NCBI RefSeq assembly: GCF_900188395.1
Contig: NZ_FZOB01000007.1
Location: 1-64,000 of the forward strand
DNA from: Desulfurobacterium atlanticum
Lineage (GTDB): Bacteria; Aquificota; Aquificia; Desulfurobacteriales; Desulfurobacteriaceae
Direction of reading: 5' to 3'
DNA: 64,000 nt
Shown here: piece after piece, positions 11,531 through 16,476 of the stretch
Layout of the letters: every line of letters starts with the position of its first letter
Position numbering within the stretch: the stretch's first letter is position 1
Made by a program: the position numbers and the translations under genes
The notes under the pieces: model-generated
The model's input: the letters and a program-made list of their open reading frames with translations, nothing else
Told to the model about the DNA's origin: nothing
The model's database searches: none

Positions 11531-12319
11531 ATGTGGTTTATGTGGATTTTTGAGATTATAGGAAGTATTGTTATTGGTGTTTTCTCTTTTATAGGGAGAT
11601 GGAGTATTCTTGCTGGAAAAGCTTTGATTCTTGCTTTTAAAAAACCGCTAAGGATTAAACGTTATTTCAACTACCTTGCCTCAATAGGGGCTGACTCTTT
11701 TCCTGTAATAGCAATAACTTCATTTTTTACTGGTGGTGTTCTTGCTCTTGAAACCTACAATGCTTTTCACCGGTTCAATGCTGAATATTTGATAGGTGCT
11801 GTTGTAGGCCTTTCTATGGCAAGAGAACTTGCTCCTGTTTTGACTGCCCTTCTTGTAACCGCAAGGAGTGGTTCGGCTATGGCGGCTGAAATAGGCACAA
11901 TGAAGGTTACAGAACAGATAGATGCTCTTGAAATGATGGCAGTTAATCCTATAAAGTATCTTATCACTCCAAGAATTTATGCTTCTGTATTAGCACTGGT
12001 ATTCCTTACGGTCCTTTCAGACATAGTAGGTTACATAGGCGGGTATGTGATAAGTGTTAAGATGTTTAATGTTAACAAAGTTTTATTTCTTAAATATACG
12101 GAAAGTTTTATGACAATGGATGATATATATCACGGACTTATAAAAGCTGCGTTTTTCGGGTTTATTCTCTCTGTAACGAGCTGTCTGTACGGCTATTACA
12201 CAAGAGGCGGTGCTAAAGGAGTTGGTGAAGCCACCACAAAAGCTGTTGTGGTTTCTTCTATGGGAATTTTAATATTTGACTATGTGATAACTTCTCTTTT
12301 AAGAATTTTTAATCTTTGA
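11531..12319 (+). CDS. mlaE: MlaE-type ABC permease (phospholipid transport)
   Basis: The 262-residue permease has five or six membrane segments. The conserved MlaE core is seen in LTALLVTARSGSAMAAEIGTM and in TEQIDALEMMAVNP. MlaE forms the membrane channel of the MCE transporter that moves phospholipids between the inner and outer membranes. GGAG at 11518-11521 supports the ATG at 11531; the in-frame ATG at 11540 is less well placed. It is followed after 7 bp by the ATPase gene and then by mlaD. No mlaA, mlaB or mlaC lies in the cluster. Confidence 0.93.
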   Translation: MWFMWIFEIIGSIVIGVFSFIGRWSILAGKALILAFKKPLRIKRYFNYLASIGADSFPVIAITSFFTGGVLALETYNAFHRFNAEYLIGAVVGLSMARELAPVLTALLVTARSGSAMAAEIGTMKVTEQIDALEMMAVNPIKYLITPRIYASVLALVFLTVLSDIVGYIGGYVISVKMFNVNKVLFLKYTESFMTMDDIYHGLIKAAFFGFILSVTSCLYGYYTRGGAKGVGEATTKAVVVSSMGILIFDYVITSLLRIFNL

Positions 12320-12326
12320 GGAATAG

Positions 12327-13094
12327 ATGTTAGAAGTTGCTATAAAAGTTGAAAATTTGAAGAAAGCTTTTGGCGAGAAAGTGGTGCACAATGGTGTTTC
12401 CTTTGAGGTTTATGATAGGGAAATCTTCGTTATTATGGGTCCATCAGGAACTGGAAAAAGTGTACTTCTTAAGCAGATTTCGGGACTTATAACCCCTGAT
12501 GATGGAAAAGTTATTGTTTATGGGAAAGATGTGTTTTCTCTATCAGAAGAGGAGAAACTGAAATTTAGAGAAGAGCTCACTTATGTATTTCAGGGAGGAG
12601 CACTTTTTGATTCTCTTAAGGTCTGGGAAAATGTAGCTTTTTTCCTGATAGAAAATAAAGGAATTCCTGAGGATGAAGCTAAAGAAAAGGCAAAATATTA
12701 CCTTTCTCTTGTTGGACTTGAAGGAACTGAGGAGCACTATCCTTCTGAACTCTCAGGCGGGATGAGAAAAAGAGTTGCAATAGCAAGGGCGTTGTGTGTT
12801 AATCCAAGATGTATCATGTTTGACGAACCAACTTCCGGACTTGACCCTGTTATGACAGCTATTCTGGATAGACTTATCCTAAAGCTTAAAAACGACCTTC
12901 ATAAAACCTGTGTAGTGGTAAGCCATGATATCCAGAGTGCATTTAGAATAGCAGATAGGATGGCTATTTTATGGAACGGCAAAATAGTAGAGATAGGAAC
13001 ACCTGAAAAAATAAAATTATCTGAAAATCCTGTTGTAAAGCAATTTATAAACGGCTTGCCGGAAGGACCTATAACAGTGGGGTATGAAAGATGA
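12327..13094 (+). CDS. mlaF: MlaF-type ABC ATPase
   Basis: The 255-residue ATPase powers the Mla transporter. It has Walker A GPSGTGKS (about 43-50), the signature LSGGMRKR, Walker B CIMFDEPTSGLDP and the switch His in VVSHD. The 'GGMRKR' form of the signature is characteristic of MlaF. GAGGA (12318-12322) precedes the start. The stop overlaps the start of mlaD by 4 bp (ATGA), indicating coupled translation. Confidence 0.94.
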   Translation: MLEVAIKVENLKKAFGEKVVHNGVSFEVYDREIFVIMGPSGTGKSVLLKQISGLITPDDGKVIVYGKDVFSLSEEEKLKFREELTYVFQGGALFDSLKVWENVAFFLIENKGIPEDEAKEKAKYYLSLVGLEGTEEHYPSELSGGMRKRVAIARALCVNPRCIMFDEPTSGLDPVMTAILDRLILKLKNDLHKTCVVVSHDIQSAFRIADRMAILWNGKIVEIGTPEKIKLSENPVVKQFINGLPEGPITVGYER

Positions 13095-14734
13095 AAAGCT
13101 TAAGCACAGAGGTTAAAGTTGGCATCTTTGTAACTGCGAGTCTCTTGGGCATTGGCATTATCGCAAAAACAATAGAACCATTAAAGTACAGCTCCCAAAA
13201 AGTAGAAGCGGTATATTACATAATTTTTGATAACGTTGCAGGACTGGCAAAGGAAGCGCCCGTTATGGTTGCGGGAGTTACGGTTGGCAAAGTGGATGAT
13301 ATTCAAGTTTTACCTGATGGAAAGGCTAAAGTTAAAGTTATTCTTACAAAAAAAGTTCCAATCAAAAAAGATTCTTACGCTGTAATAGAGACGATGGGGC
13401 TGATGGGAGAGAAGTATATAGAGATAATTCCCGGTTCTGTTAGTTTACCTTCTTTACCGCCAGGTTCTACAATTACAAAATCAAAATCAACAATTTCTAC
13501 AGACCAGCTTCTTATGAAAATCTATCAAACAGTTGATGACCTTCATAAATCTCTTGTTACTCCTGAAGGGGAAAACAGAATCGCCAGATTGCTTGATGAG
13601 ATTACTCGTCTTACAGACCAGGTTGCTCTGATGGTTGGGGATAACAGGGAAAATTTAAAGGAACTTGTGCAAAATCTTAAAGCACTTTCAGAATTTCTTA
13701 AAAGTGATATACCTGAAATTTCAGAAAATATGAAATCTTTAACTGCTCAGCTTAATCAGGTTGTTGTTGAGAATAGAGATGATATTAGAGAGGCTGTTAG
13801 AAATTTAAAAACTGTATCTAAAGAGATTCCTGAAATTGTTAATAGAGTGGGAAATCAAACAACAGATGTTTTAAATGAAACGAAGGATGTTGTTAAGCAA
13901 GCGAAGGAGATAGCTAGAGAGATAGATAAAACTGTAGCTAAGATAAATAGCATGTTGAATGATAAAAACAGGGAAAATGTTGCTGTAACCCTGAAGAATA
14001 TAAAGGAATCAACAGAGAGATTGAATTCTCTTCTTGATAAAATTCAAAAAGGTAACGGAACAATAGCGAAAATTATAAATGATGACACCCTTTACAAAAA
14101 TCTTACAACAGCCGCTGACGCTCTCGGGAATCTTGCTGATAAGTATGAAAAAACCGATGTTTATGTTGGTTTTCGTGGAGATGTAAATACGGCAACTGGT
14201 AATTTTAGAGGGGGAATTTCCTTTAAGATTGTTCCATCTTCAAAAGACAGATATTATCTTTTTGAAGTTGTTTCCGATTCTCATGGAAGGATAGATAGAA
14301 CCACTTATTACATTTACAATGGAACAGCCAGCACTGTAAATGAAGAGATAAGGCAGAGTTTTGATACTGAGTTTACCCTTCAGTATGCTAGGATATTTAA
14401 GGATCCGATTTTCTTAAAGAATGGAAGGTGGGTTCTCCGTGGAGGGATAATAGAGACCACAGGAGGAGGAGGTATAGATTATTTCTTTCCAGGGAATAGG
14501 TGGAAGTTCTTCTCCTCTGCATGGGAGTTTGACAGGAAAGATGAATACGGCAATGTTTTAAATCCTCATTTAAGGGTTGGTCTAAGCTACAACATAAACA
14601 AAAACTGGTATATTTACTTTGGTGGAGATGAGCTTCTGTATGATAAATGGAGAGGTTTCTTTGTAGGTAGTGGTCTTGTATTTGGAGACGATGATGTGAA
14701 GTATCTTATGGGTTCAATGCCGTCGCTAAAATAA
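13091..14734 (+). CDS. mlaD: MlaD-type MCE protein with long coiled coil and probable C-terminal outer-membrane beta-barrel
   Basis: The 547-residue protein is far longer than the roughly 180-residue MlaD of E. coli. A single N-terminal transmembrane helix (about 8-25) is followed by one MCE domain (about 39-115). Next comes a long helical region with heptad-like content (about 140-335). The C-terminal 190 residues (from about 356) are rich in alternating aromatic/polar strands with Gly/Asn/Asp turns (for example YVGFRGDVNT, WVLRGGIIETTGGGG, HLRVGLSYNINKNWYIYFGG). The protein ends in a short tail after the last strand. This looks like an outer-membrane barrel. A fusion of this kind has been described for MlaD of Veillonella, where it bridges the whole envelope. 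The barrel assignment here is by strand pattern only. Confidence 0.85.
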   Translation: MKSLSTEVKVGIFVTASLLGIGIIAKTIEPLKYSSQKVEAVYYIIFDNVAGLAKEAPVMVAGVTVGKVDDIQVLPDGKAKVKVILTKKVPIKKDSYAVIETMGLMGEKYIEIIPGSVSLPSLPPGSTITKSKSTISTDQLLMKIYQTVDDLHKSLVTPEGENRIARLLDEITRLTDQVALMVGDNRENLKELVQNLKALSEFLKSDIPEISENMKSLTAQLNQVVVENRDDIREAVRNLKTVSKEIPEIVNRVGNQTTDVLNETKDVVKQAKEIAREIDKTVAKINSMLNDKNRENVAVTLKNIKESTERLNSLLDKIQKGNGTIAKIINDDTLYKNLTTAADALGNLADKYEKTDVYVGFRGDVNTATGNFRGGISFKIVPSSKDRYYLFEVVSDSHGRIDRTTYYIYNGTASTVNEEIRQSFDTEFTLQYARIFKDPIFLKNGRWVLRGGIIETTGGGGIDYFFPGNRWKFFSSAWEFDRKDEYGNVLNPHLRVGLSYNINKNWYIYFGGDELLYDKWRGFFVGSGLVFGDDDVKYLMGSMPSLK

Positions 14735-16083: not shown

Positions 16084-16476
16084 ATGGAGTCTTTAAAAGG
16101 AAAGCTTGTGTTTATTCAAACTACCGGTGGAGAGGGAGTAATTCCGTCTTCTGGTATCATAGGTATTCTTGAGGAAGTTGGAGAAGAGTATCTTAAAATC
16201 AAAGATGCCGGTATGTTTGCTCTTATTCCAACATCTCAGGGAGCGCAGGCAACAATAATGCCTGTTGATCCTACTGCAAATGAACCGGTTGATGCTTTTG
16301 TGATGAAAAATCAGATTGTTACTGTTGTCCCTGTAGGTGATAGGTCAAAGCTTAAAGAGTTTCATCAGCAGTTTAAGGCTGCAGCTGCAGGGATAGAGCT
16401 TCCATCTTCAGGACTTGACATTTCAAAGATTAAAGAGTTTCCTAAAGGTGGGAAAGGAGGATTGTCCTTAACTTGA
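16084..16476 (+). CDS. Conserved hypothetical protein, 130 aa
   Basis: I do not recognise the family. The first 65 residues look like a small beta-barrel (GKLVFIQTTGG, GIIGILEEVGEEYLKI, FALIPTSQGAQATIMPV), followed by a strand-rich middle and a Lys-rich, probably flexible tail. There is no signal peptide or membrane segment. GGAGG precedes the ATG. Its stop overlaps the TTG start of the downstream histidine kinase (TTGA), which implies coupled translation. A link to the kinase is possible on that basis only. Confidence 0.7.
   Translation: MESLKGKLVFIQTTGGEGVIPSSGIIGILEEVGEEYLKIKDAGMFALIPTSQGAQATIMPVDPTANEPVDAFVMKNQIVTVVPVGDRSKLKEFHQQFKAAAAGIELPSSGLDISKIKEFPKGGKGGLSLT

Follow-up and report, generated by a model that had tools for sequence, protein, structure and literature searches.

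A long MlaD with a predicted C-terminal outer-membrane-type barrel in Desulfurobacterium atlanticum and other Aquificota

The mlaE-mlaF-mlaD locus

We analysed a stretch of 64,000 nucleotides from Desulfurobacterium atlanticum (positions 1 to 64,000 of contig NZ_FZOB01000007.1), hereafter called the window, in which three adjoining genes on the forward strand were assigned as follows.

11531..12319, + strand: mlaE, inner-membrane lipid permease, 262 amino acids (PF02405, E = 1.2e-79; TIGR00056, 265 bits, above the cut-off)
12327..13094, + strand: mlaF-like ABC ATPase, 255 amino acids (PF00005, E = 8.1e-32; NF008809, E = 3.2e-61, under the cut-off)
13091..14734, + strand: long mlaD, 547 amino acids (open reading frame; 129 of the 136 Aquificota genomes compared have homologues)

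The reading frame of mlaD occupies exactly positions 13091-14734 and starts with ATG. The gene order is mlaE-mlaF-mlaD, with 7 bases between mlaE and the ATPase gene and an overlap of 4 bases between the ATPase gene and the start of mlaD; hisH follows 12 bases past the end of mlaD, and lysS and a lolC/E permease gene lie upstream on the opposite strand. Since NF008809, the MlaF model, scored under its cut-off, the ATPase was named mlaF-like because of its placement between mlaE and mlaD. The nearest public relative was a Desulfurobacterium metagenome-assembled genome (MAG; 82% identity), and a search of a plasmid collection gave no relative that covered 80% of the query. A 130-residue open reading frame elsewhere in the window (16084-16476, + strand), located between genes for a SpoU-type methyltransferase and a histidine kinase, had no match in Pfam or NCBIfam.

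Domain layout of the long MlaD

A full-length AlphaFold2 model of MlaD was built with 15 homologues. Ahead of the C-terminal domain, the following features were recognized.

13106..13171, + strand: N-terminal transmembrane helix, residues 6-27 (AlphaFold2 secondary structure)
13214..13435, + strand: MCE domain, residues 42-115 (Pfam MlaD/MCE, PF02470, E = 9.5e-20)
13499..14143, + strand: helical linker, residues 137-351, a needle presumed to cross the periplasm (AlphaFold2 helices, pLDDT under 50)

PF02470 matched the protein once, giving a single MCE domain per chain. The strands of this domain were modelled at residues 40-113, and structural comparison aligned 98 residues of the domain with the core of Escherichia coli MlaD (5uw8) at an rmsd of 1.3 A (Z = 12.4). 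A sequence search of the PDB matched MlaD and Mce1 chains to the N-terminal half of the window protein only. The hydrophobicity of the linker had a period of 100 degrees, which was reached by none of 300 shuffles, and its 215 residues, if all helix, would by computation reach about 32 nm, which is sufficient for a periplasm. The model helices have a pLDDT under 50, and the crossing of the periplasm by the linker is accordingly a presumption. A first-pass annotation, made from the letters of this DNA, had described a transmembrane helix, one MCE domain, about 200 residues of helix and a strand-rich C-terminus, and this layout was borne out by the single PF02470 match and by the AlphaFold2 model.

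A predicted barrel at the C-terminus

The remaining part of the protein contains three features.

14156..14683, + strand: predicted C-terminal barrel, residues 356-531 (AlphaFold2; structural matches to outer-membrane barrels)
14438..14482, + strand: conserved hairpin RGGIIETTGGGGIDY, residues 450-464, strands 5-6 (G452 and G459 invariant)
14687..14713, + strand: predicted C-terminal helix DDDVKYLMG, residues 533-541, past the last strand (AlphaFold2)

In the full-length model the barrel has ten strands (residues 356-366, 371-381, 387-397, 424-436 and 446-454 for strands 1-5, and residues 457-465, 471-478, 493-501, 506-513 and 523-531 for strands 6-10). The pLDDT by block was mostly 75-90, less at the edges and under 50 in the loop at 398-424, which joins strands 3 and 4 and is lengthened by a small hairpin at 404-417. 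When residues 354-531 of this model were compared with the PDB, the top matches were OpcA (1k24, Z = 16.6) and Legionella porin I (9nh1, Z = 14.2), and matches to the designed ten-strand membrane barrel TMB10 (8uzl, Z = 14.1) and to Pla of the OmpT/Pla family (2x56, Z = 13.8) were also obtained. Because the matched structures are barrels, we infer that the barrel is closed. A model of the domain only, made with eight sequences (mean pLDDT 66), matched KdgM, NanC and other mostly twelve-strand outer-membrane barrels, and Foldseek with this model returned nothing at E under 0.001. In a Pfam search with the isolated C-terminus, the window protein fell into no family, and two homologues weakly touched OMP_b-brl (E = 0.07).

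The strands have alternating faces: on one, hydrophobic residues make up 73% and polar or charged residues 3%, and on the other they make up 32% and 41%, respectively. This per-strand alternation was reached by 22 of 5000 shuffles, in a test that is not independent of the model because the strands were taken from it; across the entire barrel stretch, the hydrophobic period was no better than that of shuffles (155/300). Judging from the modelled strand ends, loops of about 26, 14 and 9 residues lie on one side of the barrel and short turns lie on the opposite side, and this arrangement is the pattern of outer-membrane proteins. The last residue was Phe in 8 and Tyr in 2 of the 14 barrel-bearing homologues from other phyla, and Phe or Tyr is the usual final residue in outer-membrane barrels.

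Both the prediction and the structural matches thus point to a transmembrane-type barrel. A soluble sandwich or calycin fold was considered for the C-terminus and judged unlikely, since membrane barrels score higher; the built-in barrel proposed in the first-pass annotation is in line with a ten-strand prediction whose best matches are outer-membrane barrels. The strand number is provisional: the better model gives ten and the two models together give ten to twelve, with ten favoured because the barrels of Aminicenantes homologues are short (about 124 residues) and the barrel of Veillonella parvula MlaD has ten strands (PMC10665443).

Conservation and homology of the barrel

Over 30 Aquificota sequences, the top residue had a mean frequency of 0.68 in the MCE domain, 0.53 in the linker and 0.68 in the C-terminal domain, and in six more distant members the identity was 38-57% in the barrel and 27-36% in the linker. 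The most conspicuous conserved motifs were DDDxKYL in the end helix and RGGxxE(S/T)xGGxGxD in the hairpin. In the former, D533, D535, Y538 and L539 were conserved in at least 95% of the 30 Aquificota sequences; in the latter, G452 and G459 were invariant in 15 of 15 aligned homologues, in an alignment extending to other phyla. Because homologues exist in most of the Aquificota genomes compared (129/136) and the barrel is conserved like the MCE domain, the pattern of the long MlaD is not a product of chance.

Profile comparison indicated that the Aquificota barrel is homologous to the barrel encoded at another locus, L004 (99.6% probability, 172 columns). The Aquificota profile gave only partial matches with sequences from Riflebacteria and Omnitrophota and no match with Aminicenantes. 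As a control, an unrelated outer-membrane-like protein of the D. atlanticum genome was compared in the same manner, and no sequence homology with the barrel was detected. A MAG labelled Omnitrophota (L014, 6001-7500) encodes an MlaD with a barrel-like C-terminus and a final Phe, as does another MAG (L011, 5893-7392). Omnitrophota are often grouped with the PVC bacteria. In the PVC groups, no barrel was found in a previous survey (PMC10665443).

Genome content and distribution in Aquificota

The genome of D. atlanticum (1.74 Mb, 99.7% complete) was compared with a set of 136 Aquificota genomes, using E. coli and Caulobacter as positive controls. It has one MCE gene. A weak PF02470 match (G000:C9:37792) was examined as a second candidate and rejected, as it is an adaptor protein encoded beside TolC-like and RND efflux pump genes. 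The first-pass annotation had remarked on the lack of MlaA and MlaC genes nearby, and this lack extends further than was claimed: searches of the whole genome, and of the 136 Aquificota genomes, found neither gene, with the controls positive. Of the two outcomes that the annotation had named as refuting its reading, a soluble sandwich or open sheet instead of the barrel and separate mlaA and mlaC genes elsewhere, neither was observed. The PqiC family (PF03886) was likewise found neither in D. atlanticum nor in any of the Aquificota genomes (0/136), with positive controls. D. atlanticum has LptD, LolA and a TamB homologue, and the cell therefore has a built outer membrane.

Over the whole set, MlaD was found in 129, MlaE in 126, the TamB homologue in 120 and LolA in 113 of the 136 genomes. 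The match to MlaD ran through the barrel (to residue 542 or beyond) in at least 118 of 136 genomes, which belong to four families out of five; the remaining one (f2) consists of two genomes only, one of them 64% complete, and had no barrel match among those listed. The barrel-tipped MlaD is thus phylum-wide in Aquificota as judged from sequence, and it is the sole MCE route in these diderms, which also carry LptD and Lol genes.

Comparison with known MCE systems

Barrel-tipped MlaD has been known since 2023, when it was described for Veillonella and inferred in 103 sequences (Grasekamp et al. 2023, PMC10665443). With that many sequences it is not rare, and what is added here is its presence throughout the Aquificota. 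Aquificae are unnamed in the main text of that paper (PMC10665443), and our search of the open-access literature found no paper linking the Mla system with Aquificae or Aquificota. The MlaEFD core has been argued to be ancestral (Grasekamp et al. 2023, PMC10665443), with duplications and transfers reported in Gracilicutes (PMC10665443). The occurrence of the MCE-barrel form across the Aquificota is at most compatible with a deep origin, which the first-pass annotation had regarded as supported.

The window MlaD agrees in layout with V. parvula MlaD (PMC10665443), having a transmembrane helix, one MCE domain, a long helical region and a predicted C-terminal ten-strand barrel, so that the earlier comparison with a Veillonella-type fusion holds. 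In both organisms mlaE, mlaF and mlaD adjoin, and MlaA and MlaC are absent. The window protein is longer (547 residues versus 419) and has about 215 helical residues, whereas V. parvula has about 150, for which a tunnel of 23.5 nm was estimated (PMC10665443). Unlike V. parvula MlaD, it has an end helix past the last strand, although a helical extension occurs in some sequences (PMC10665443). The neighbouring genes also differ, being hisH and lysS in the window and tolC and tamB in V. parvula. No Lol system has been identified in V. parvula, whereas Aquificota have LolA (together with lolC/E in the window genome) and yet lack MlaA; the absence of Lol is therefore not a general reason for lacking MlaA.

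With E. coli MlaD, a component of MlaFEDB, the window protein shares the fold of the MCE domain and the partners MlaE and MlaF. However, E. coli MlaD has 183 residues without a needle or barrel and depends on MlaC and MlaA, and the window protein scored 93.4 bits with the equivalog model of the E. coli type (TIGR04430), below the cut-off of 135. The MlaA and MlaC that the six-part Mla system of the E. coli type requires are missing from the window genome. The mycobacterial Mce1 complex (8fed) resembles the window MlaD in that each chain carries a single MCE domain and, behind it, a helical needle, with matches in both sequence and fold. It is, however, a hetero-hexamer with one small barrel shared by the chains, each of which supplies a single strand (PMC10665443), and no chain has a full barrel of its own. 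PqiB, LetB and Brucella MpcD are, like the putative assembly considered here, envelope-spanning MCE assemblies. PqiB and LetB have several MCE domains per chain whereas the window MlaD has one, and the Pqi and Mpc systems use an outer-membrane lipoprotein, of which the PqiC family is absent in the Aquificota set.

Proposed function

We consider that the window MlaD is the MCE subunit, barrel-tipped and probably hexameric, of a three-component MlaEFD lipid transporter (probability of about 0.78). The assignment of a long barrel-tipped MlaD to a three-part MlaEFD system, made from sequences and models, is well supported by the domain layout, the barrel matches, the absence of MlaA, MlaC and PqiC, and the spread over at least 118 of 136 genomes; for the outer-membrane location, the stoichiometry and the direction of transport, we infer the following. 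The N-terminal helix would join MlaE and MlaF in the inner membrane, the periplasm would be spanned by the long helices, and the ten-strand barrel made by residues 356-531 would sit in the outer membrane. By homology, six chains may assemble to give a ring plus a helical tunnel whose bore is hydrophobic and whose tip carries six barrels, and ATP hydrolysis may drive glycerophospholipids between the outer and inner membranes, most likely in the retrograde direction. The barrel end would then take the docking, and perhaps the extraction, role of MlaA, and the needle would take that of MlaC. The expression 'single-protein bridge' in the first-pass annotation is thus an overstatement: MlaE and MlaF would be needed for power, and since hexamers are the form of the MCE proteins that have been characterised (PMC10665443), six chains together would make up the bridge. 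V. parvula MlaD is recovered in the fractions of both membranes, and a mutant deleted for it has a lipid-asymmetry phenotype (PMC10665443).

A variant of this explanation, which we regard as quite possible at somewhat less than even odds, is that the barrel is only an anchor that holds the tip of the needle, while lipids get into or out of the tunnel at the inner leaflet or in the spaces between barrels, neither traversing a barrel nor being extracted by one. The narrow bores of ten-strand barrels would suit such a role. The choice between stability or anchoring and passage was left undecided for V. parvula (PMC10665443), and the barrel is wholly absent from many long MlaD proteins. On the other hand, conservation of the barrel to the same degree as the MCE domain, and of the end helix as well, seems to be beyond the needs of an anchor.

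Transport in the opposite direction, in which MlaEFD supplies phospholipids to the outer membrane, is unlikely: the direction of Mla is disputed in the literature (PMC10665443), but the TamB homologue, a protein proposed for outward flow, is present in 120 of 136 genomes, and phosphatidylethanolamine accumulates in the outer-membrane vesicles of V. parvula mutants (PMC10665443). A needle of the Pqi or Brucella Mpc kind, docked by a separate outer-membrane lipoprotein, is very improbable, because, even though LolA and the LolC/E permease would allow a lipoprotein to be placed in the outer membrane, none of the 136 genomes has the PqiC family and the window MlaD has a predicted barrel of its own. 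We give the least credence to a soluble periplasmic lipid-binding barrel of the calycin or lipocalin kind, since the two soluble barrels on the list of the full-length model (DUF3598, 2o62, Z = 12.1; CpeS lyase, 4tq2, Z = 10.4) rank below the outer-membrane barrels (Z = 16.6 to 13.8), the best 24 rows obtained with the domain-only model contain none, the long loops are confined to one side as in outer-membrane proteins, and the majority of homologues have Phe or Tyr as their last residue.

The barrel-tipped MlaEFD transporter can be extended to a more specific proposal, which is tentative and in our estimation doubtful: in Aquificota, with this sole MCE route, the barrel and the DDDxKYL end helix might constitute a portal that extracts outer-leaflet phospholipid, with one protein replacing both MlaA and MlaC. 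How phospholipids traverse the periplasm has yet to be settled, and the Mla system studied in most detail looks like an exception. Aquificota are distant from model organisms, and many of them grow hot. Thermostable proteins suit structure work, and since D. atlanticum has one MCE gene, it offers MlaEFD as a clean system of three genes; the Aquificota MlaEFD could tell a lipid portal from an anchor.

Variation of the mla genes among Aquificota

The tight mlaE-mlaF-mlaD cluster was typical of the window's own family. In several families, mlaD lies far from mlaE (among genomes G053, G098, G100 and G074-G076), and in three genomes from another family, f4, mlaD has a gene other than mlaF upstream of it; both observations count against the three-component reading. 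A gene resembling that for 3-dehydroquinate synthase II precedes mlaD in G074-G076; the internal stop codons in mlaD of these three genomes were only apparent, the stop being located at the gene boundary, and the genes are therefore intact. A second MlaE with a frame of 328-369 codons, compared with about 250 in the usual form, was found at G001:C1:1085623, G101:C3:28832, G031:C59:15578 and other positions, and perhaps carries an extra N-terminal domain. In genome G131, two mlaE-mlaD copies with equal scores are 7.2 kb apart (C2:203736-206718 and C2:210959-213941), and either were duplicated recently or reflect an artefact of the assembly. Finally, near an efflux-pump operon of the D. atlanticum genome, a gene at L071 (265-1461, - strand) encodes a predicted exported protein that consists almost entirely of ankyrin-like repeats.
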